A stretch of 64,000 bases of DNA. It comes from a virus. Positions 22,217-48,598 of the stretch are shown here, one piece after another (within the stretch, counting starts at the first letter, position 1; each line of letters starts with the position of its first letter). The translations under genes and the position numbers were made by a program. The stretch covers positions 248,001 through 312,000 of IMG/VR virus record IMGVR_UViG_3300047319_001872, one strand, 5' to 3'. The notes beneath the pieces are model-generated. The model was given only the letters and a program-made list of their open reading frames with translations, was not told the DNA's origin and ran no database searches.

Positions 22217-22418
22217 GCGGTGCTCCAGAAACCCTGTAAGAAATTACTTGCGGTCGCCATGCTGTAGCTAACATGTTCGCAATCAGGCGATTACGTCATC
22301 GGAAGCTACAGTCCTCTGTGAAATCGAACCACACAACGGGGTCGTTCTTTTCGAGGATAGTCAGATGATTGAGCTATCCGATAGCACTTAACATTTAAAA
22401 CGGTATTTGGGGTTTAGC

Positions 22419-22982
22419 ATGACGAAGAAGAGTCAGGGTCGGTTGATGCGCGACGCGATCAAGAAGGACGCGAAGGAAGAGCTCAACCAGAATCGCAACT
22501 GGGACGAGCTGCACGAGCGCTATGCAGAATGCCGCAACCTACTGTTGATGCATCTGGCTGTCGGGGAAATCCTCCAGCGCCCGGACATCCAGGGGGAGAT
22601 CTACAAGCAAGAAGCCCAGACGGTGATCAGCAACATTCAGCTCCTCACCAAGGACCTGAACGAGCGCGCTCAAGAGCTCACGATGATCTACGGCACGCAC
22701 TCGGATAAGACCGGGGGCTGCGACGAGAACGACATCATGCTCTCGTTTGAGATCATGGAGAAGTACACCGCGTGGCTCTCGCTGATGCAAGCGAACGTGC
22801 AGCCGACGCTCGCGCACATCATGGAAATCACGAGCGAAGTCGAAAAGCGCCTCATCGCCAAAGCAGCCGTGCTCGATCCGAACGTCGTCACCGACGTGGA
22901 AGTGACCGAGTCGACCAAGCACAACGACACGCTCGCCGCCGGGATTGCGGCGGCGGACAAGACCAACCCGAAGGCGGAGTAA
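22419..22982 (+). CDS. Unknown helical protein, 187 residues
   Basis: The ATG at 22419 is chosen over a TTG 12 bases upstream; a G-rich TTGGGG precedes it. The product is a basic-then-acidic helical protein (KKSQGRLMRDAIKKDAKEEL at the N-terminus) with coiled-coil tendency and no known motif. It is followed after 3 bases by the 542-residue gene. The 202-base region upstream (22217-22418) is AT-richer and divergent from the gene at 21350, so it should contain promoters, though no TATATTAC core is present. Confidence 0.65.
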   Translation: MTKKSQGRLMRDAIKKDAKEELNQNRNWDELHERYAECRNLLLMHLAVGEILQRPDIQGEIYKQEAQTVISNIQLLTKDLNERAQELTMIYGTHSDKTGGCDENDIMLSFEIMEKYTAWLSLMQANVQPTLAHIMEITSEVEKRLIAKAAVLDPNVVTDVEVTESTKHNDTLAAGIAAADKTNPKAE

Positions 22983-22985
22983 ACG

Positions 22986-24614
22986 ATGGAAGGTCAAGAG
23001 AACAACAACATTCACACGCCGTCGGTGACCACCGCGGCTGACGTGCCGCCGGAGCTGCGTACACCGACGACGGCAGTCGAACCGGCCGTGATCCAGCCGC
23101 CCGCACCGGACGTCTCGGAAGGCGTGCACGAAGTGCTCGGGGGTTTGCCTGAAGATACGCTGAGTGATGCCGCGGCACCGGCGCAGGAAGACACCGAACT
23201 GAAGGTCGAAGAAACGCCCAAGCGTTTGCCGCAAGCCGATACGACCACCGTCAAGCAAGAACAGGCGGTGTTCATTCCGCTGGGTGTGGCGTTCGACGTG
23301 AACGGTATCACGCTGGCTGTACCGGGTGCGCGGGAAGACGAGCTGCAAGAAGCCCTTGCCAAGATGCCCAACACCGATCTGGGTGCAACGGCTGAAGGTC
23401 GCGAGTGGATTGCCGTGGCGCAGGCAGGCTATCGTAATGCCACGCCGCGTAAGATGCTCACCGACCTCGACGTGCGCGAAGGCTCGCTGTGGGAGCAAGC
23501 AGTCAAGTCCGAGCGCGGTGGCATTCAGGCCTCGCGTCCCAAGCAAGCCGATACCGCTGGTGTCAGTCTGCGTGGCGAAGCCGGGGTGCTGGCCGTGCGT
23601 CAGGAAGTGGGTCTGGGTGGCATCATCCGGATTCCGCTGTGGCACTCGGGCTTTCACATTACGCTCAAGACGCCGAGCGATGCAGCCATCCTGGAACTGG
23701 AACGCCGCATTACTGACGAGAAGGTGCTGCTCGGTCGCATGACCAACGGCATGCTCTTCTCCAACACGTCGGTGTTCATTGCCGAGTACCTGACCGAATT
23801 CGCCATTCGCCATCTGTACGACACGTCGCTGCGTAACAAGGAGAACATCTTCTCCAAGATCGTCTCGCACGACATCCAGCATCTGGCATGGGGACTGGCC
23901 ACGGCGATCTGGCCGACGGGCTTCCAGTACGTGCGGTCAGTGCTGGGCGAAACCGACGCGCAGAACAAGGTGGTGAAGGACAAGATCGCGGTCGGCAAGC
24001 TGCAGTTCACCGATACGTCGCAACTGTCGAAGTGGCAGATCAACCACATGACCTCGGTCACGACGGGCTCGATGACGGACGACTCGATCAAGAAGTACCG
24101 CGAGGAGTTCCTGAATCAGACGCCGCGTAAGGTGCAAGTCACCGACAAGGTCGCGATCACGCTGAAGGTCCCGACGCTCGCCGAGCATATCGCCTCGGGC
24201 CAGAAGTGGGTCAACGGAATCGTCGTGATGACGGACCAGGTCTTCGGCATGGAACAGGACGTCGATGAGCGTAACCGCTTTATCTACGAACAGGGCCAAG
24301 CCACCTACATGCGTCAATACGGGCACTGGATCGAATCGATCGAGCTCTCGAACGGCGCGATTGTGGAAGACCCGGAAACCATCGACCAGACGATCGACGC
24401 GCTCTCCGCGGATGACACGATTCGCAACAAGTTCGTGGACGCGGTGGTGAAGTACATCGAAGATACGACGGTCTCGATGATCGCCGTGCCGACGGTGGCG
24501 GCAAGCGAAGAACAGAAGTACCCGCGCTGGCCGCGGTTGCTGCCGATTGATGCGATGGCAACTTTTTTTACCCTACTCGACCAGAAGGTCTCGCAGATCC
24601 GGGCACGCAGCTAG
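22986..24614 (+). CDS. Probable virion structural protein
   Basis: A 542-residue protein. The first 90 residues are Pro/Thr/Glu-rich and disordered; the rest is ordered alpha/beta with many aromatic residues ('WPTGFQYVRSVLG', 'ATYMRQYGHWIESIEL'). No catalytic motif seen. It lies 3 bases after the previous gene. Near the 3' end a T TTT TTT heptamer (24563-24569) sits in frame and a minus-one shift there would join the next frame; codon choice favours normal reading to the TAG. Structural role is inferred. Confidence 0.6.
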   Translation: MEGQENNNIHTPSVTTAADVPPELRTPTTAVEPAVIQPPAPDVSEGVHEVLGGLPEDTLSDAAAPAQEDTELKVEETPKRLPQADTTTVKQEQAVFIPLGVAFDVNGITLAVPGAREDELQEALAKMPNTDLGATAEGREWIAVAQAGYRNATPRKMLTDLDVREGSLWEQAVKSERGGIQASRPKQADTAGVSLRGEAGVLAVRQEVGLGGIIRIPLWHSGFHITLKTPSDAAILELERRITDEKVLLGRMTNGMLFSNTSVFIAEYLTEFAIRHLYDTSLRNKENIFSKIVSHDIQHLAWGLATAIWPTGFQYVRSVLGETDAQNKVVKDKIAVGKLQFTDTSQLSKWQINHMTSVTTGSMTDDSIKKYREEFLNQTPRKVQVTDKVAITLKVPTLAEHIASGQKWVNGIVVMTDQVFGMEQDVDERNRFIYEQGQATYMRQYGHWIESIELSNGAIVEDPETIDQTIDALSADDTIRNKFVDAVVKYIEDTTVSMIAVPTVAASEEQKYPRWPRLLPIDAMATFFTLLDQKVSQIRARS

Positions 24615-24658
24615 TTGCAAAACACGTCGGTCACCCATTCTTTGGAGAGCATGTCGAT

Positions 24659-25078
24659 GTGGTCGCGAAGCTCAGCGAACTCATTGCCAACGCCCCCAAG
24701 ATGTGCGTGACCGACACGCGACAGTTGTTGTTGCACCGCTACGAGACGGACTTTGGGATTTACAATCACGACATCTCTGATTTCGAGAAGAATCCCTTAG
24801 CCCTTATCCGGATGCATTCTCGTGAGGATTCATACACGGGTAGTCATCTGGCCGAGCGCATCAGGCAGTATCACGAACGGCAAGTGTGGGAAATCACCCA
24901 CGAACCGTTGAGCGCCTTTCTGAACTATCCGCGCCACATGGTGCTGGACATTTTGGAACTGGCCGACAAGGTGTTGCGGGATAAGACCGCAACGTTGGTG
25001 AAAGAAGGCAAGGTCCTGGAGGACCGTGTCGCCGCGCTGAAGGCCACGAACGGCGACATGACTCCACCACCGCACTAA
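24659..25078 (+). CDS. Unknown 139-residue protein
   Basis: A GTG at 24659 is used with GGAG 11 bases upstream; the frame is open further upstream into the previous gene without a good start. The product is soluble and helical, with 'HYETD/HRYETDFGIYNHDI' near 26-40 and a charged coiled C-terminus. It leads directly to the macrodomain genes (12 bases). Start uncertain. Confidence 0.55.
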   Translation: MVAKLSELIANAPKMCVTDTRQLLLHRYETDFGIYNHDISDFEKNPLALIRMHSREDSYTGSHLAERIRQYHERQVWEITHEPLSAFLNYPRHMVLDILELADKVLRDKTATLVKEGKVLEDRVAALKATNGDMTPPPH

Positions 25079-25090
25079 CCGGGGCCGTCA

Positions 25091-25543
25091 ATGATCATTT
25101 ACGATGAACCGCGTAACATCTTTGAAGTAACGGAGCAAACGCTCGTTAATCCCGTGAACACGCAAGGTGTCATGGGTGCTGGCTTAGCGTTGGCTTTTCG
25201 CAGTACCTTTCCCGGTCTGTTTGAAGAGTATCGCGACGCTTGCCAGCAGGAGGTGTTTACGCGGCGAGGTTTCTTCGTGTACGACGTTGACGCTTCGCGC
25301 AAGGTGTTGTGTTTGCCCACTAAGCGAGAATGGCGCCATCCTTCGAGACTGGAATGGATCGAAGAAGGCCTTTGGTATTTGTCGAGAGAGTATGAGCACT
25401 ACGGGATTACCTCACTGGCGATTCCTGAGGTAGGCTGCGGGCGAGGTCAGTTAGGATGGGCAGATGTGCGCCCTCTGATCTATCAGTACCTGGACCCTAT
25501 CGCGTTACCAGTGGGGATTTGTTTAAGCCCCTTTGCAGTCTAA
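25091..25543 (+). CDS. Macrodomain protein (DarG/TARG1-like ADP-ribose hydrolase)
   Basis: A 150-residue single macrodomain. The ADP-ribose loop is 'NPVNTQGVMGAGLALAFR' (20-37), followed by 'CLPTKREWR' with the candidate catalytic Lys at 78 and the second loop 'IPEVGCGRGQLGW' (111-123). This arrangement is that of TARG1 and of DarG, the antitoxin that removes ADP-ribose from DNA modified by DarT. In a phage it could undo host DarT-type defence or recycle ADP-ribose. It is followed after 16 bases by a diverged copy. Family assignment is strong; the defence role is inferred. Confidence 0.88.
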   Translation: MIIYDEPRNIFEVTEQTLVNPVNTQGVMGAGLALAFRSTFPGLFEEYRDACQQEVFTRRGFFVYDVDASRKVLCLPTKREWRHPSRLEWIEEGLWYLSREYEHYGITSLAIPEVGCGRGQLGWADVRPLIYQYLDPIALPVGICLSPFAV

Positions 25544-25559
25544 CTGACTGGGAACGACG

Positions 25560-26018
25560 ATGATCATCTACGAAACAGAGTGCGAACAGTTACGTGCAGA
25601 AGCGCAGACGCTTCTCACGCCCATCAACATCGATGCCGTGGGGGGCGGAGGTTTGCCTGCGGCGTTTCGGTATGGATTCCCCGGACTCTTTAAAGCCTAT
25701 TGCTGGGCCATGAAAAAGGGGATCTTCGAAAACGATAGCCTGTTTGTCTACGACGTGTCGCCCGAGCGGAAAATCGCCTGCATGCCGATGAAGCAGCACC
25801 AGCGGTACAGCACCGAAGAAAAGCTCGAGTACCTCGAAGAAAGTCTGATGGTAGTGGCCACCAGCTACCAGAAGTACGGTATCATCTCCATGGCACTCAA
25901 TGAAATCGGTTACGGTGACACTGCGCTACCATGGGAAAAGGTCAGGCCGGTCATCCAGCGTTGTTTTGGATCGATCGATCTGCCGGTGGGGATTTGTCGG
26001 GGAGTAGTACCTGTGTAA
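25560..26018 (+). CDS. Diverged second macrodomain protein
   Basis: A 152-residue paralogue of the upstream gene that aligns almost without gaps ('MIIY', 'AFR.GFPGLF.AY', 'FVYDV....K..C.P.K'). The first loop is altered: N20 becomes T and 'NTQGVMGAGLA' becomes 'NIDAVGGGGLP'. The second loop GCG becomes GYG. Lys78 is kept at the same position. It may bind a different ligand, have lost catalysis, or act as a partner of the first copy. Confidence 0.82.
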   Translation: MIIYETECEQLRAEAQTLLTPINIDAVGGGGLPAAFRYGFPGLFKAYCWAMKKGIFENDSLFVYDVSPERKIACMPMKQHQRYSTEEKLEYLEESLMVVATSYQKYGIISMALNEIGYGDTALPWEKVRPVIQRCFGSIDLPVGICRGVVPV

Positions 26019-26040
26019 CTATCGCGCCGGAGACCAAACC

Positions 26041-26250
26041 ATGCGATGGCTGATCCAGCAATACCAAGACTGGCGGTTCGCTCGCTACGAGCGAGCTAAG
26101 CTGATCCGTGTCGAAGAAGAGTTGCGTATCCGACGTCAGTTGGACTACCTCGAACAATCCCGTAACGCAACTCGTCCGGGGAAGGTCCTTACGCTCACGG
26201 AAGCGGAGCTGATGGGCCAACAGATGACCGAGCTCAATCGGCGCTGCTAG
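26041..26250 (+). CDS. Small basic coiled-coil protein
   Basis: A 69-residue, Arg/Glu-rich single helix (WRFARYERAKLIRVEEELRI) with no known motif. It follows the macrodomain pair by 22 bases and is the last gene before a strong terminator. The short size and charge pattern suggest a protein-binding peptide. Confidence 0.5.
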   Translation: MRWLIQQYQDWRFARYERAKLIRVEEELRIRRQLDYLEQSRNATRPGKVLTLTEAELMGQQMTELNRRC

Positions 26251-26286
26251 AAGTACAAGAAGCAAAAAAAAAAGACGGGGTCATAG

Positions 26287-26315
26287 AGCCAGGAGCCCTT
26301 ACGGGTCTCCTGGCT
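26287..26315. terminator. Bidirectional hairpin terminator
   Basis: A 9-bp perfect stem AGCCAGGAG/CTCCTGGCT contains a further CCC/GGG. It is enclosed by GTCATAG and CCTATGCC. Ten As at 26264-26273 give the T-run for the minus-strand gene ending at 26332; the plus gene ends at 26250. Confidence 0.85.
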
Positions 26316-26331
26316 CCTATGCCGTCAAGGC

Positions 26332-28170
26332 TTAGTCTGATACACCACGATAAAACAACTCGTGCAGACAACCATTGGTGACTTCAGTCCCCGGCTCGTA
26401 GTAATTGACCCCTTTCTCGATACAGTACTGCTTGTCTTCTGGAGCAGGATCAACCGTTACGCGGTAAGCTGGCATCGTCCCACTGCCGCCGTCGAGCATG
26501 ACCAAGATCGAAAACGCCACGCGATCGCAGCGTTCTTTCACCGTCCCGCCATTAGGCGTAGTCGCCCAGTAGTGCGCCTTATCCCGGAACGCTTGTAAGA
26601 ACTCGTCCCGGACTTCGTCTTCTGTCCGCGCCCTGGGTTCGGGCTTCCTCTCCGACATAGACGGGAGCGTATTCAGATACGCACTGGCTTTGGTTTCTAT
26701 TTCAGCTACAGGCTTCTCCCAGATCACAAACGGATCGCTTTCGTCGTCATTGTGGGTAGCATCCGCCGCGGCATTGATCACCGCGTACAGATCGGCGGAA
26801 AGCGCCAAACTGCTCGGACGCGAGTCGGCTACCAGCGGCGAGGTGAGCGCGTCCGCATACGAGGCGAAGTGGCGTTTACCCTGGTAGCTCGATCCGAACA
26901 GCAGGTTGTACTGGATCGACGTATTGCCGAACACTTCCACGTTAAAGAAGAGGCTGCCACCTTCCAAGCCCATGCGCCGCAGATCCGGGAAGATCTCGCG
27001 GTCCATAACACCTTGCACGTGCTTGATGCGCTCCGCCGTATCCATGGTCCCTGCAAAGCCACGGGTATTGAGGAACGTGAAGGCGGTCGGATCTTCTTGA
27101 TCGTGATACGGAATGTCGACCTGGAACTGCGCCGTGGTGAACCCCATCGAGTGGAACAGCGCCGGGATGGTCTGACCCAGATAGACGAGCGCTTGATTCG
27201 CGCGCTCGCTCACTGGGCTGTCTTCTTCGGGACCGGTGTATTCTTCGAAGGCCACGACACCCTTATCCACTACAGCAGGTAGCACCCGCTGCAGGTCTTC
27301 CATGGTGAAGCGACCCGCGAAAGGCCCGCCTTGCACCTGCGCGAGCGCGCGGAAGAACGAATTGAATGACAGCGCAGGCGGCTCCAGGTGAGTGCGCATC
27401 GTGTTGAAGACGAGATCGTTTTTCAACATCTCATCGGGCGCCACGTCCTCGCCCTGCTCCAGTACCTTGAAGTAACACTGCATCAATTCGGCCAGAAAGC
27501 GCGAAGGCAAGACGTGACGACGATGCACATAGCGCGGCAGGGTAGTAACCATCGTGCGTGTATCGACAACATCCTCCGACCCCGCAAAGTCGAAGGCGGA
27601 AAAGTGGGTGGCCACATCCGACGGGCTCACGCGTGTTTCGCGCTTCGTCAAGTCGCCCGAAGCAAGCACGGCGTCAAAGATCAGGTGCTCAGCCGCTTCC
27701 AGACGGCGATGAACGCGATCGCCGTCCACGGTCCTCGTGACCGACGCATGTTCCACCAGACACGAGTTCACGTAGAAGATCACGCCCGACCAATCGATCC
27801 GATCTGCGAGCTGCACCGGCATGCGATTGGTGTAACCGGCGATGTTGTAAATCGAGTTCACACCGATGGGCGAGACATGTTCCACGGCCAACACAAAGGA
27901 AAGCCGTTGTGCCTCCCAACCGCCATCGATGGGGCGCGCAGGCAACATCTTGCTGCCGTAGCTCAGCAGGCCATCCAGTTCACGGGCGACTGAGCGCGCG
28001 GTGATGCGCGTGCCATCGCGCTCGTCCATGAACTTTTTCACACGGGCGATGGATTCCGGCGTGGCTTCACAGACGAGCTGAGGGCGTTGTTGCGCCTTCA
28101 CGCCGTTGACAGTGCGCAGGACGAAGGCACGCAGTGCGTAGGTGCCATACTGCGATTCTTTACCAAACAT
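26332..28170 (-). CDS. Structural-type protein, paralogue of 37092-38615
   Basis: The start at 28170 (MFGKESQYG) follows CAGGAG. The 612-residue protein shares a long conserved core with the product of 37092-38615: 'QRLSFVLAVEHVSPIGVNSI' versus 'RRLRFMMLLDHIGPAGVEIT', then 'VIFYVNS' versus 'MFFYVNS', and 'DTRTMVTTLP' versus 'DTRTLVTGLP'. No catalytic motif seen. Two copies in one genome suggest related particle or nucleus components. It is last in a four-gene minus unit. Confidence 0.7.
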   Translation of the reverse strand: MFGKESQYGTYALRAFVLRTVNGVKAQQRPQLVCEATPESIARVKKFMDERDGTRITARSVARELDGLLSYGSKMLPARPIDGGWEAQRLSFVLAVEHVSPIGVNSIYNIAGYTNRMPVQLADRIDWSGVIFYVNSCLVEHASVTRTVDGDRVHRRLEAAEHLIFDAVLASGDLTKRETRVSPSDVATHFSAFDFAGSEDVVDTRTMVTTLPRYVHRRHVLPSRFLAELMQCYFKVLEQGEDVAPDEMLKNDLVFNTMRTHLEPPALSFNSFFRALAQVQGGPFAGRFTMEDLQRVLPAVVDKGVVAFEEYTGPEEDSPVSERANQALVYLGQTIPALFHSMGFTTAQFQVDIPYHDQEDPTAFTFLNTRGFAGTMDTAERIKHVQGVMDREIFPDLRRMGLEGGSLFFNVEVFGNTSIQYNLLFGSSYQGKRHFASYADALTSPLVADSRPSSLALSADLYAVINAAADATHNDDESDPFVIWEKPVAEIETKASAYLNTLPSMSERKPEPRARTEDEVRDEFLQAFRDKAHYWATTPNGGTVKERCDRVAFSILVMLDGGSGTMPAYRVTVDPAPEDKQYCIEKGVNYYEPGTEVTNGCLHELFYRGVSD

Positions 28171-28201
28171 TGTAATCTCCTGTTTTACTCTGGGGTGGGG
28201 G

Positions 28202-28732
28202 TTAGGATACAGCATTCAGAAGGCGCACCACTTCTTCGTAGATTTCGCGAAGCGTGCGGTATTCGTTGCCTTGCGTGAACTCCGAGACGTGATAGAACAC
28301 GCCGTCGTCGGCTTCCAGCTGCTGGGTGAGGATGCGCTCCATTTGGAAGATCCCGTTTTCCTGACCCAGTTCGTTGCACAGGTAGGCGAGCCAGACCAGA
28401 TCGCCCAAGGTGAACGCGTCCTTATTCCAGCGGCGCACGGTCGCCAGTTCGATTTGACGACCCGTCACCGTGCCCTTCCAGACACGGGTATTGGCCTCCA
28501 CGATGTCGATCGCCCGCTCAAACGGATTGAACGAACCACCCCGTTGCCGGAAATCCGACTCGACCACCATGCGGTAGAAGTCGTCGCACTCAAAGGCACT
28601 GTTGCTACGCACTCGTTCGATCTGATGGAGGATCTGGATCGGACCCTTGTGCTCGTTGTAGGTGTAGTCAAAGAAGCCATTGAGCAGCAGGCCGACGTTG
28701 TGGCCGATTTGGTCGAGGCGTTGCGGAATCAT
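28202..28732 (-). CDS. Unknown 176-residue protein
   Basis: AAGGAG precedes the ATG, which overlaps the stop of the upstream gene (ATGA). The product begins MIPQRLDQIGHNVGLLLNGF and is mixed helix and strand with an acidic C-terminus. Coupled to its neighbours between helicase and the 612-residue structural-type protein. No motif recognised. Confidence 0.62.
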   Translation of the reverse strand: MIPQRLDQIGHNVGLLLNGFFDYTYNEHKGPIQILHQIERVRSNSAFECDDFYRMVVESDFRQRGGSFNPFERAIDIVEANTRVWKGTVTGRQIELATVRRWNKDAFTLGDLVWLAYLCNELGQENGIFQMERILTQQLEADDGVFYHVSEFTQGNEYRTLREIYEEVVRLLNAVS

Positions 28733-37091: not shown

Positions 37092-38615
37092 TTACAGTTG
37101 ACCGAATTGCACCCCGGACGTGCCGTGGTACGACGCACCCGGTGCGATGTCGTTGGAATTCAACACCGCATTAAAGAGGCTATTGAAGTCCGTCGCCAAA
37201 GCGAGCGCGCGCTGATCGTTGTTGGTCACGATCGGCACGAGCAGGGCATCACAGAAGCTCGGCAGCGCGAAGGTCTCGAAAGGTCCACCATTCATCGAGA
37301 TCTCCAGGATCGACTCACCCAGCAAATCGAGCTTCAGGTTGAACGCGTAATCCAGCGTGTTGCTGTACGACACATCGTTCAGCACTTCGTTGGCCACACG
37401 CCACTTGAACTTCTCGATAAACTGCGTCATGTCGATCGTGGTGCCTGCCATCGACGGGAAGTCGCGCATGCCGGAGATGACGATCTGCGGCTCACGGAAT
37501 TCATTGCGGTTCGTACAGTGCACGATGATGTTGGCGATCGCGGACTCGACCATGATAGCCGGGATCGAATGCGCGATGATCGTTGCCACCTGCGTGTACT
37601 GGTTCGAACCACCCCAACCCACTTCACTCGACGTGTTGTTGAAGAAGCCGCCGTGTTGTCCGCCCATCGGATTGATGGGGGACGCTTGCCCCTGATACGA
37701 GAGCAGTGCGATGTCGTCGTCCATCGCGTGCGGGTCCATACGCAGCAGATCGCTGATCGTGAAGGAGTTGCCGTTCTGGCTACCCCGGATCTTGTTGATC
37801 GCGTTCATGAACGGATCTTGCGCCACCGACTGCTCGACCGAATGGCCGCGCGCTTGCGAGAGAATCTGGTCGTGCGACTGACCAAATGCATCGAGCTTCA
37901 TCGCCGTCTGATAGTTTTCAAACAGCGCTGACGCGTAAGCCGTCGTATTGGCATTGCGCCGCCACGACTTTTGCGGCAGTCCCGTGACCAAGGTGCGCGT
38001 ATCGTTCATGTCCGCATTCGTCTCTTGGCCGAGATGGATACGTGTCATGGTCGAATACACATCCGCAGGGCGCATGCGGAATTCCTTGTTCGGCTGATGC
38101 ACGTTCTCCCAGGCATTGTCGACGATCACGTGCGCCGCATCAGCGACGTTGTAATAGTCGCGATTGCCGATCGCGGTGCGGGCCGTGACCCGACGCAGCG
38201 CCATGGTGGAATTCACGTAGAAGAACATGTGCGGGTCGATATTACCCTGCAAGGTCGGATCGAAAAACTCCGAGTAGCCGGTGATGACCTGCGTGATTTC
38301 GACGCCTGCCGGTCCGATGTGGTCCAGCAGCATCATGAAGCGCAGGCGCCGCTCCTGCCAACCGTGCGGAATCACCACTTCTTTTTCGTACGCGGCCGAG
38401 GGCAAGATGAACTGATTTGCCACCCCTGCCAACGATGCCGGAGTAGCCGGTTGCTTCGGGTCCAGCCGGTCCGCCACCAGCTGTTCCACGTTCGGCGTCA
38501 CGACCGTTTCGTACGGTCGACGGTACTGTTGGCCATGACCGCTGGTCTCGACCATGACAAGCTGACGCACGCGAAACTTGTCACCCATCCCGTTACCTAC
38601 GAAGTTGTTCAGCAT
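37092..38615 (-). CDS. Structural-type protein, paralogue of 26332-28170
   Basis: The start at 38615 (MLNNFVGNG) follows CAGGAG. A 507-residue protein with the same conserved core as the 612-residue gene: 'RRLRFMMLLDHIGPAGVEIT', 'MFFYVNSTMALRRV', 'DTRTLVTGLPQKSWRR'. It is rich in Asn, Gln and Met, like capsid-type proteins. It overlaps the region of the gp68-like gene end by spacing of 2 bases. Function is unknown; shared core implies a duplicated ancestral gene. Confidence 0.7.
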   Translation of the reverse strand: MLNNFVGNGMGDKFRVRQLVMVETSGHGQQYRRPYETVVTPNVEQLVADRLDPKQPATPASLAGVANQFILPSAAYEKEVVIPHGWQERRLRFMMLLDHIGPAGVEITQVITGYSEFFDPTLQGNIDPHMFFYVNSTMALRRVTARTAIGNRDYYNVADAAHVIVDNAWENVHQPNKEFRMRPADVYSTMTRIHLGQETNADMNDTRTLVTGLPQKSWRRNANTTAYASALFENYQTAMKLDAFGQSHDQILSQARGHSVEQSVAQDPFMNAINKIRGSQNGNSFTISDLLRMDPHAMDDDIALLSYQGQASPINPMGGQHGGFFNNTSSEVGWGGSNQYTQVATIIAHSIPAIMVESAIANIIVHCTNRNEFREPQIVISGMRDFPSMAGTTIDMTQFIEKFKWRVANEVLNDVSYSNTLDYAFNLKLDLLGESILEISMNGGPFETFALPSFCDALLVPIVTNNDQRALALATDFNSLFNAVLNSNDIAPGASYHGTSGVQFGQL

Positions 38616-38617
38616 GT

Positions 38618-40186
38618 TCAAACGCTCCTGTTTGCTTGGTTCATTGCGATTTCGATCGACAGTTTTGCCATTTTGATTTTTATATCGTAAGGCACCGCGT
38701 ACCGCCGATCATTGGTGTTTTGGACGACCTTCGCGAGCCATCCCGCGGGCACCGTTAAGCGCCACTCATGTTCGCGAAGTTGCTTGGTCACGTGGTCGAT
38801 GCCCAGTACCGCGACATTCTTTTCCTTTTGTGACTTCTGCTTGCCGGACTGCCGTCGTGCGTGCGGATAGAGCTTATTGAGCTCTTCCACCATGTTCGCC
38901 GGAATCCGGGCTTGGGGGATCACACCGGTCAGCTGCAATTCCTGTGCGTTCGACTGGGCCACTGCTGTCATCAACCCAGCCAGCTCGAAGTGTCCCCGTT
39001 GCCAGAGTACTGCCTGCGCTACTCCCATAGCCTCCAGCACGGATTTCTTCGAGAGATACGGAAAAGCACGGGGACTCACGGCGTCTTCCAGCGTCCACTG
39101 GATCAGCGCCAACTGCGGGTCCCAGATGTGTTCGTTGGTCAGTTGTTTGACCGCATCCAACGATTCCAACAAAATCCCGAGGTTCTCCTTAAGCTCCGGG
39201 CACACACGCAACGCCAGTTTGGTGGTGTCGCTGATGTAGTGCTCGACGATCGCGATGTCGCCTGCGGGAATTTCCTGCTTGACCTTGTAGCCTTCCAACT
39301 TCGAGAGATTGTTTTCGCTATCCCCCGACTGGCTTTCCGGAATCTTCGGCTTGACCATCCCCATGAAACTGTGGTCATGGCCCTTGACCTTTTGGCCCAC
39401 GTAGCGGTAGATAAACGCCACCAGGTTAAAGTCCGGGTCCGTCCCGCTGATGTCGCCAATCGTCAGACGACGAATCACCACCAGCGCCAGCACCCAGGTG
39501 GAAAAGTCTTCCGTGGAAATCCCGTCGAGAATCGCCGAATCGAATTCCTTCGTTTGCGGCAAGCTCAATTCCACGTACTTCTGCAAACGCTCCATCGGCG
39601 GGCACTGACCTTCAGCGAGGATGTACGACTGCGAGAGCAACTGGAACGCCTTGTACTCCTTCCAGTTGGTCCCGTGTTCCTTCTCGGTGCGAAACACATA
39701 CTCGCCCCACACCAACAGCATCGGCCGCAGTACGACGCTCAATACCACGAGCTGTTTATAGTCTTCGCGCAGATAGGTACGATCTCGCGTACCGATGGCG
39801 CTGTGACTGTCGCCGTATTCCTCATTGAGGTTGTGCGGCATGGCAATGTCGCTGTGGAAATCAATCCACGAGCGAACATCGTCGAGCTTGTGCAGTGCGC
39901 ACAACTCTGCGATCTGGGGCAAGAGCGCACGGGCCAGATCCTCGGTTTCCCAGATCTCGTCGAAGGTGATGTGAATGCGCTTGTACACCTCGAAGATCTT
40001 ATCCTGGGCTTCCGCTGGCTGCTTCTCCCAGAACCCATTGATCTGGTGGAAGATGTCCACATCAGGCTTGATCGACGCCTTATCAATCAGCTTGATATTC
40101 CACTTCAGTTCCTGATCACGGTGACGTAGGAGCGCAACCGTCTGGTCTCCCAGATGGCCTTCCCGTTCGGTGACTACACGCATCAT
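38618..40186 (-). CDS. Probable fifth subunit of non-virion RNA polymerase (gp68-like)
   Basis: The start at 40186 (MMRVVTERE) is chosen for CAGGAG; the frame is open to 40255. The 522-residue, helix-rich protein has no familiar motif. Its size agrees with the phiKZ gp68 subunit as I recall it, and it lies in the same order between the beta' N-part and the beta C-part genes. gp68 has no cellular homologue and is needed for promoter recognition by the non-virion enzyme. Identity rests on size and order, not on motif. The gene is first after the promoter at 40239. Confidence 0.6.
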   Translation of the reverse strand: MMRVVTEREGHLGDQTVALLRHRDQELKWNIKLIDKASIKPDVDIFHQINGFWEKQPAEAQDKIFEVYKRIHITFDEIWETEDLARALLPQIAELCALHKLDDVRSWIDFHSDIAMPHNLNEEYGDSHSAIGTRDRTYLREDYKQLVVLSVVLRPMLLVWGEYVFRTEKEHGTNWKEYKAFQLLSQSYILAEGQCPPMERLQKYVELSLPQTKEFDSAILDGISTEDFSTWVLALVVIRRLTIGDISGTDPDFNLVAFIYRYVGQKVKGHDHSFMGMVKPKIPESQSGDSENNLSKLEGYKVKQEIPAGDIAIVEHYISDTTKLALRVCPELKENLGILLESLDAVKQLTNEHIWDPQLALIQWTLEDAVSPRAFPYLSKKSVLEAMGVAQAVLWQRGHFELAGLMTAVAQSNAQELQLTGVIPQARIPANMVEELNKLYPHARRQSGKQKSQKEKNVAVLGIDHVTKQLREHEWRLTVPAGWLAKVVQNTNDRRYAVPYDIKIKMAKLSIEIAMNQANRSV

Positions 40187-46687: not shown

Positions 46688-48598
46688 TTACCAGCGCGAG
46701 CTGAAGCCCGTGCGACCCCAGCCAGCGCCTTGGTTCGACTGACCGCCGAAGCCTGCCGCGAACAGACCGGTTGCACCCGGAGCCATGAGCAGGCCGTTGG
46801 CGAACTGCGCCGTTGCACGCTCTTGACCCGCGACGTCGCCGAACGGGTATTGTGCACGCAGGACGAGACCCGCATCCACGCAGCCCTTGGCCAGCGCTTC
46901 CATGAACGCACCGTCCAGCGTTGCACGACGTGCGAAACCCGTGAAGGTTGCGTCGCCGACCAGACCCTGGATGATGTTCTTGCGACGCGCGAGACGCTGC
47001 GCGGGCGAGATTTGCAGATTGACAAACGTGTCGCTCCAGTCCTTGATGACCGTCGGGTCCTTCTCGCCGATCAGGTTCGCTACCGCGAGGTAGTCGATGT
47101 CGCGGATGTCGCGCTTGCGACCTTGCTGGTCGACGTACCAACCCAGGTGAATGCGGTTGTTGTTGTCGAACGCAACGCGGCCCGTGCCGTTCGTGTAGTG
47201 CTTCAGGAAGTTGCCGTTCGTCAGCGTCTGCGCTGCTTCGATGATGAACTCGTTGGCCTTCTGGCTGCCTTCAGCAGCAGCCGCGAACACCGAGTTCGAC
47301 CAGGTCGACGGACCGCATTCCGGCACGTCGATCGAGAGCAGCAGGCCCGGACGCACGAAAGCTTGCAGCAGCTTGTGCAGCGTGCCTTGTGCCGTGAACG
47401 CGTCCGACTTCGTGTCGATGCGCGCGCCGATACCGTTCGCGTTGCCTTCCGGGTTCGCTTCGATACCGATTGCACCGATGTCGTGCATGTCGATGCCTTG
47501 CGCGTAAGGACGCGGTGCGAAACCACGTGCCCAGGCGTTGCCGTCACGCAGCGTGAGTGCCTGAACCAGCGCGAACAGCTGAGCCGGAACGGTCATCAGC
47601 TCGAGCGTTTCCAGGTGCGTCATCACGAAGTGCGTGATGTACAGCGGGTTGAACTGCTGTTGCTGCGACTGACCCCACTGCGCGTACGGGTTCGCGGTCG
47701 GTGCGACCGGGTCCCACACGAGGTCGAGGAAGCCGCCGACTTGCGAGACCTTCGTCGCGCGTGCGTCTGCATTGGCGCCCTGGCCGGTCGTGATTGCCGT
47801 GGCGATCAGGTCGATCATCACGTCGGTGCGGATCGGCTCGCCGACCGGGTCAACCAGCTGGTCGTGGTTGAACGCGACGCGTGCGGTCAGGTTCGAGTCA
47901 CGTGCTGCGCCTGCGAGGTTCAGGTCGCGGAAGTCCGGACGCATGCGGTTCAGTTCGTGGTTCGCTGCAAACAGTGCGTTCGCGGCGAGCTGGTACACGA
48001 GCTGTTCGTCTGCGACGTCGAACGAACGCGGCACGACTTCGGCTTCAGCGTCGATCAGACGCGCGCCGTTGAACGTACGGGCCACGGCATCGGCCACGAC
48101 TTCGCGGAACTTGTCGTCCCACACGTCGCCGTCGACACGCTGGATTTCGACGTTCTGACCGTTGATCTGGTCGTACTTCGGCGGGAACGGTTCGCCCGAG
48201 CCTGCGAGGATCAGCGTGTGGTACGCGACGCCCAGGTCCAGGTCGTTCTTGTCGAACAGGGCCACGATGAGCGCCGAGCGCGCGATCGCCGGGTTGTTGT
48301 TCATGTCGAGCGGGAGCAGCTTGATCTCGAAAGCCGGGTTCGCCGACTTGTACGTTTCGATCAGGGCCTTCTCGAGCTTGACGAGCACTTCAGCAGCCGG
48401 GTTGCGGCCCATCGGTGCGTTGCCCAGGCGGCCGAGCGAGCGGAAGCTGAAGCCCGCCGGTGCGGATTGTTGTTGCTGGTTCATGGTGCCTCGCGGTTGA
48501 GAGTTCTGGTTATCCTTGGCACGGGTGAAACCCGCTGCCATTTGCGTTTCCGCCGGAGCTGCTGCTTGGCCTTCTTGGCCCGGTTGTTCGATTGCCAT
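46688..48598 (-). CDS. chmA: Chimallin-like major nuclear shell protein
   Basis: A 636-residue protein with AAGGAATAG before its ATG. The first 50 residues are Gln/Ala-rich and disordered; the body is alpha/beta; the last 30 are Gly/Gln/Phe-rich and flexible. Size is that of chimallin (about 630 residues in phage 201phi2-1). It has its own early-type promoter 85 bases upstream and a strong terminator, as expected for the most abundant early protein, and lies directly before the gp55-type gene, as phiKZ gp54 does. Chimallin tiles into the lattice that encloses phage DNA. Identity is by size, order and expression signals; no short signature motif exists. Confidence 0.78.
   Translation of the reverse strand: MAIEQPGQEGQAAAPAETQMAAGFTRAKDNQNSQPRGTMNQQQQSAPAGFSFRSLGRLGNAPMGRNPAAEVLVKLEKALIETYKSANPAFEIKLLPLDMNNNPAIARSALIVALFDKNDLDLGVAYHTLILAGSGEPFPPKYDQINGQNVEIQRVDGDVWDDKFREVVADAVARTFNGARLIDAEAEVVPRSFDVADEQLVYQLAANALFAANHELNRMRPDFRDLNLAGAARDSNLTARVAFNHDQLVDPVGEPIRTDVMIDLIATAITTGQGANADARATKVSQVGGFLDLVWDPVAPTANPYAQWGQSQQQQFNPLYITHFVMTHLETLELMTVPAQLFALVQALTLRDGNAWARGFAPRPYAQGIDMHDIGAIGIEANPEGNANGIGARIDTKSDAFTAQGTLHKLLQAFVRPGLLLSIDVPECGPSTWSNSVFAAAAEGSQKANEFIIEAAQTLTNGNFLKHYTNGTGRVAFDNNNRIHLGWYVDQQGRKRDIRDIDYLAVANLIGEKDPTVIKDWSDTFVNLQISPAQRLARRKNIIQGLVGDATFTGFARRATLDGAFMEALAKGCVDAGLVLRAQYPFGDVAGQERATAQFANGLLMAPGATGLFAAGFGGQSNQGAGWGRTGFSSRW

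Follow-up and report, generated by a model that had tools for sequence, protein, structure and literature searches.

Which functions could two adjacent macrodomain genes, one with a catalytic-looking active site and the other with an altered one, serve in a single phage? The question is raised by the window analyzed here, i.e., the whole stretch of 64,000 nucleotides, taken from a virus record of 313,315 bases, in which the genes termed m1 and m2 are separated by 16 nt within a same-strand gene run at 22407-26250 (Table 1). The answer tentatively favored here, with somewhat less than an even chance of being right, is that m1 would be a thymidine de-ADP-ribosylating enzyme that counters DarT2 in the phage nucleus and that m2 would serve as a non-hydrolytic binder or adaptor.

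Table 1. Features of the macrodomain locus and of related genes (window positions unless marked G000)
Feature	Position	Strand	Remarks
542-aa gene	22986-24614	+	phiKZ gp77 homolog (phrog_4585); landmark of the conserved locus
139-aa gene, upstream in the same run	24659-25078	+	phrog_12109, function unassigned; no DarT match
m1	25091-25543	+	150 aa; stand-alone DarG-type macrodomain, predicted active ADP-ribosyl hydrolase (N23, K78, W81, G115/G117/G119 kept)
m2	25560-26018	+	152 aa; tandem-duplicated, diverged macrodomain
69-aa ORF after m2	26041-26250	+	conserved in FLC9
Strong hairpin between convergent genes	26274-26326		z -5.87
Divergent second PicA-like gene	26332-28215	-	phrog_3141, phiKZ gp69 family; convergent with the macrodomain pair
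Canonical PicA homolog	37092-38621	-	phrog_3141, E 2.5e-83
Chimallin/nuclear shell homolog	46709-48589	-	phrog_4795; converted from G000:294709-296589
NADAR gene outside the window	G000:180475-180975 (L059 976-1476)	-	

An earlier note, made from the sequence alone, had described tandem macrodomain genes at this locus. Both open reading frames are confirmed, and searches against PHROG, PADLOC and PDB place the two products among DarG-like macrodomains. The same gene order recurs in Burkholderia phage FLC9 and in three IMG/VR contigs, so that the two frames are not a product of chance. The note's claim that the two proteins align without gaps does not hold, as pairwise alignment yields 42% identity with one two-residue gap, caused by an insertion in m2 just after the catalytic region. 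The hairpin downstream of the gene run is preceded by an A-run on the plus strand and is therefore consistent with a terminator of the gene on the minus strand. The 542-aa neighbor was considered as a PicA candidate and rejected, since it is a homolog of phiKZ gp77 and the PicA-like gene is the one that lies beyond the hairpin.

Judged from its sequence and predicted structure, m1 looks like an active ADP-ribosyl hydrolase of the DarG type. It matches the Pfam Macro family (PF01661) with an E value of 2e-11 and 44.3 bits, above the curated cut-off of 22; its best family is DarG in PADLOC (2.5e-46), which is also the top family in NCBIfam. The best matches in sequence and structure are DarG macrodomains (Thermus aquaticus 5M31/5M3E, M. 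tuberculosis 5M3I and Thermosipho DarTG 7OMU), followed among the solved structures by TARG1. The predicted model (pLDDT 93.9) superimposes on ADP-ribose-bound TaqDarG with a Z score of 22.9 and 1.8 A over 147 residues, and more weakly on TARG1 (Z 19.4). Residues K78, N23 and W81 of m1 align with K80, N22 and W83 of TaqDarG, as do the loop-2 glycines G115/G117/G119 with G117/G119/G121, and both glycine loops are intact. Mutation of K80 and N22 affects TaqDarG activity hardest (PMC5179494), and W83 is the residue proposed to stack on thymine. Within the pair, a DarG-type macrodomain with the catalytic Lys, Asn and Trp is found in m1 only. Several other DarG ligand contacts are altered in m1 (T20 to P, Q34 to A, K29 to A and N120 to R). 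The combined TARG1/DarG signature that had been ascribed to m1 is upheld for DarG but not for TARG1 (C6orf130), which shares the fold and the catalytic lysine (Lys84) while its Asp125 aligns with Gly119 of m1. Judging from these families, m1 may use Lys78, as DarG does with its lysine, to remove ADP-ribose from nucleic acids, with thymidine of the phage DNA as the most likely target.

Nevertheless, m1 falls short of a complete DarG antitoxin, because the C-terminal, DarT-binding domain is absent and the genome record contains no DarT gene. Against the NCBIfam equivalog of full-length DarG, m1 scores 147 bits (cut-off 250) in a match that spans only positions 7-138 of 338. The search for DarT (PF14487) gave no match in the genome record, and the same search recovered DarT in Thermus phage phiMa. 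In phiMa (L008 3291-5047), the DarT gene lies beside a DarG-like gene of 357 aa, an arrangement that represents a phage-borne DarTG.

A role of m1 against DarT is plausible from gene content, since the genome encodes a NADAR protein as well as a macrodomain, the two types of DarT antitoxin: NADAR and macrodomain proteins act as antitoxins of guanine- and thymidine-modifying DarTs, respectively (PMC11543638). A NADAR homolog is also encoded by FLC9 (L060 552-1052), where the flanking genes are the same as in the window phage. The argument is weakened by the fact that the NADAR protein of this genome is nearer to models of riboflavin-intermediate N-glycosidases.

Alternatively, though with a probability that we consider rather low, m1 might target not DNA but free ADP-ribose derivatives such as ADP-ribose 1''-phosphate, O-acetyl-ADP-ribose or cyclic ADP-ribose signals. 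Macrodomains act on many ligands of this kind, and those of phages have been proposed to process soluble derivatives (PMC9503650); phage relatives of m1 are annotated as phosphatases, and related phages encode fusions of a macrodomain to SLOG (YAcAr). However, the genome gave no match to the KptA and sirtuin families, which mildly disfavors a by-product of RNA repair as the ligand, and both the clear affinity of m1 to DarG and its retention of W81 speak for the DNA substrate.

If m1 acts as a counter-DarT2 enzyme, its site of action would be the phage nucleus. The phage very likely forms such a nucleus, as it encodes homologs of both chimallin and the canonical PicA. In phiKZ, import of the macrodomain protein gp104 into the phage nucleus depends on PicA (PMC11087766). 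Like m1, gp104 and gp167 of phage 201phi2-1 are single-domain macrodomain proteins of nucleus-forming phages with the catalytic lysine, and gp104 also keeps the tryptophan; they differ from m1 in genome position and in the lack of a tandem copy. In a tree of 32 macrodomains they form a separate clade with a long stem (1.3), to which m1 does not belong. Nuclear import of m1 would thus be proposed by analogy and not by orthology, and from this location m1 would counter host DarT2-type ADP-ribosylation.

The comparison with gp104 also allows for the reading that m1 is a housekeeping nuclear protein and no counter-defense factor, which we regard as unlikely. Macrodomains are widespread in phiKZ-like phages, and when phiKZ104 was knocked down, chimallin fell, whereas the numbers of phages and cells did not change greatly (PMC12571901). 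Yet the same study classes phiKZ104 among the non-core genes, which it suggests to be of importance in competition or where the host carries other defenses (PMC12571901), and the active site of m1 resembles that of DarG.

With macrodomains present in 56% of jumbo phages (PMC9503650), m1 on its own is ordinary; it is m2 that sets the locus apart. In the tree, m2 is the sister of m1 with a support of 98/95 and has a far longer stem (0.89 vs. 0.19), which places its origin in a tandem duplication within this phage lineage, after which one copy changed rapidly. Between the same neighbors, two contigs of related phages (L023 and L042) carry a single macrodomain gene. Apart from the window record, FLC9 and three close IMG/VR contigs were the only places where the pair turned up. 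Other jumbo phages were searched for the pair, as had been suggested: matches to m1 occurred at 266 places in 264 records, and two of these records carried two matches, namely FLC9 with tandem genes and Salmonella phage SA002 with a partial second copy fused to SLOG. The idea that the pair is widespread among phages was therefore not supported; it was found in the FLC9-like lineage only, and a single macrodomain gene is common. Scans whose reach was restricted to close relatives returned no m2 relatives in bacterial genomes, no further relatives of FLC9 m2 in viral contigs and, with narrow patterns, no cellular relatives of m1. The uncommon part is therefore the retained, catalytically relaxed twin, which was seen nowhere outside the lineage in the collections searched.

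Other two-part arrangements differ from the m1/m2 pair. The macrodomain-SLOG (YAcAr) proteins of Erwinia, Salmonella and Proteus jumbo phages contain a macrodomain that is about 40-44% identical to m1 but is fused to SLOG and is not accompanied by a complete second macrodomain gene in tandem. Such proteins lie at L003 4001-5290, L007 4001-4831 and L004 4001-5877; they comprise fusions in Erwinia and Proteus jumbo phages and, in SA002, a partial second macrodomain that is joined to SLOG and located behind the first. A LucasX-like contig (G004; L061 482-1153) contains a second, different macrodomain-family match, and its candidacy as an m2 relative was not supported. The tandem macrodomains of betacoronaviruses are extremely divergent copies like m1 and m2 (PMC9503650), but they are of unrelated origin and form domains of one polyprotein, so that the likeness is one of analogy only.

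The fold of m2 is predicted to be retained, with a model that matches DarG at a Z score of 17.2. By sequence, the window copy reaches 19.3 bits (E 0.0012) with Pfam Macro, just below the cut-off of 22, and the orthologs in G001 and G002 lie above it with 24.8 bits. As had been claimed, the ADP-ribose loop is altered in m2, where loop 2 reads GYGDTALPW in place of GCGRGQLGW in m1, and m2 lacks the tryptophan and canonical loop 2 of DarG. The claim that m2 keeps Lys78 is valid for the window, where both proteins have this residue, but not for the m2 lineage, as FLC9 m2 carries arginine. Loop 1 of m2 has become a fixed new motif, TPINIDAxGGGGLP.

Overall, m2 is under purifying selection that is relaxed at the catalytic-lysine region and at loop 2. 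Its dN/dS ranges from 0.08 to 0.17 in the more distant pairs, compared with about 0.03 for m1; where FLC9 is involved, the m1 value is saturated and that of m2 rough. A value of 0.43 in the nearest m2 pair is based on very few changes. Between the window phage and FLC9, identity in the catalytic region is 14/16 for m1 and 7/18 for m2 (p 0.005), and in loop 2 it is 16/18 and 7/18 (p 0.0045). No significant drop was found in loop 1 (21/23 in m1, 20/23 in m2) or in one long helix (16/19 and 17/19), and most other regions are about equally conserved in both proteins. These figures refer to a single phage pair and to seven regions picked after inspection of the alignment, and the p values near 0.005 rise to about 0.03 after Bonferroni correction. 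Given the relaxation of both regions and the loss of the lysine in the FLC9 ortholog, m2 is probably no hydrolase, whatever its ligand, and this is the best-supported part of the interpretation. The reading given in the earlier note is upheld in part, namely in that m1 looks catalytic and m2 is an altered copy.

That m2 might instead be an active hydrolase, neofunctionalized for a new substrate, has a low probability in our estimate. Both K78 and N23 are kept in the window copy and in three relatives, and a fixed loop 1 motif would suit a new specificity; on the other side stand the K78R exchange and the loop 2 shortened by two residues in FLC9, together with the variation of the W81 position and of loop 2 among m2 copies. 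The simplest reading of the conservation pattern is a macrodomain freed from catalysis and retained for another purpose. Selection would largely have ceased to act on loop 2 and around the catalytic lysine, with the fold, loop 1 and the long helix kept, and m2 would most likely act as a non-hydrolytic binding partner or adaptor, either for m1 or for a nucleic acid or nucleotide ligand. A role as a sensor or binder of a new ligand, as envisaged earlier, is possible.

A narrower version, in which m2 is a pseudo-enzyme that serves m1 as an adaptor for nuclear import or for DNA or nucleotide binding, possibly together with the second PicA-like protein, appears improbable. This protein is 23% identical to the canonical PicA, and its gene is also present in the IMG/VR relatives G001 and G002, with no counterpart found in FLC9, LucasX, G004 or G005. 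Strict co-occurrence with the macrodomain pair was rejected: FLC9 has the pair and the canonical PicA only, and the second PicA-like gene is therefore no fixed partner. Equally improbable is that m2 is a decaying relic heading for loss, as its faster evolution and changed catalytic features would suggest, since its frame is open and of full length in all copies, the more distant pairs give a dN/dS far under 1, its loop 1 and helix are as conserved as those of m1 and it has been retained since before the FLC9 split.

If m2 were such an adaptor for its active twin, a nucleus-forming phage would supply its nucleus with a de-ADP-ribosylation module of its own. If m1 erases ADP-ribosylation of DNA within the phage nucleus, nucleus-forming phages would possess a macrodomain-based counter-defense that is combined with a NADAR eraser. 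The relaxed twin m2 would provide a natural case in which an enzyme was duplicated and catalysis was then lost while the scaffold was kept, and it makes the function of jumbo-phage macrodomains directly testable.
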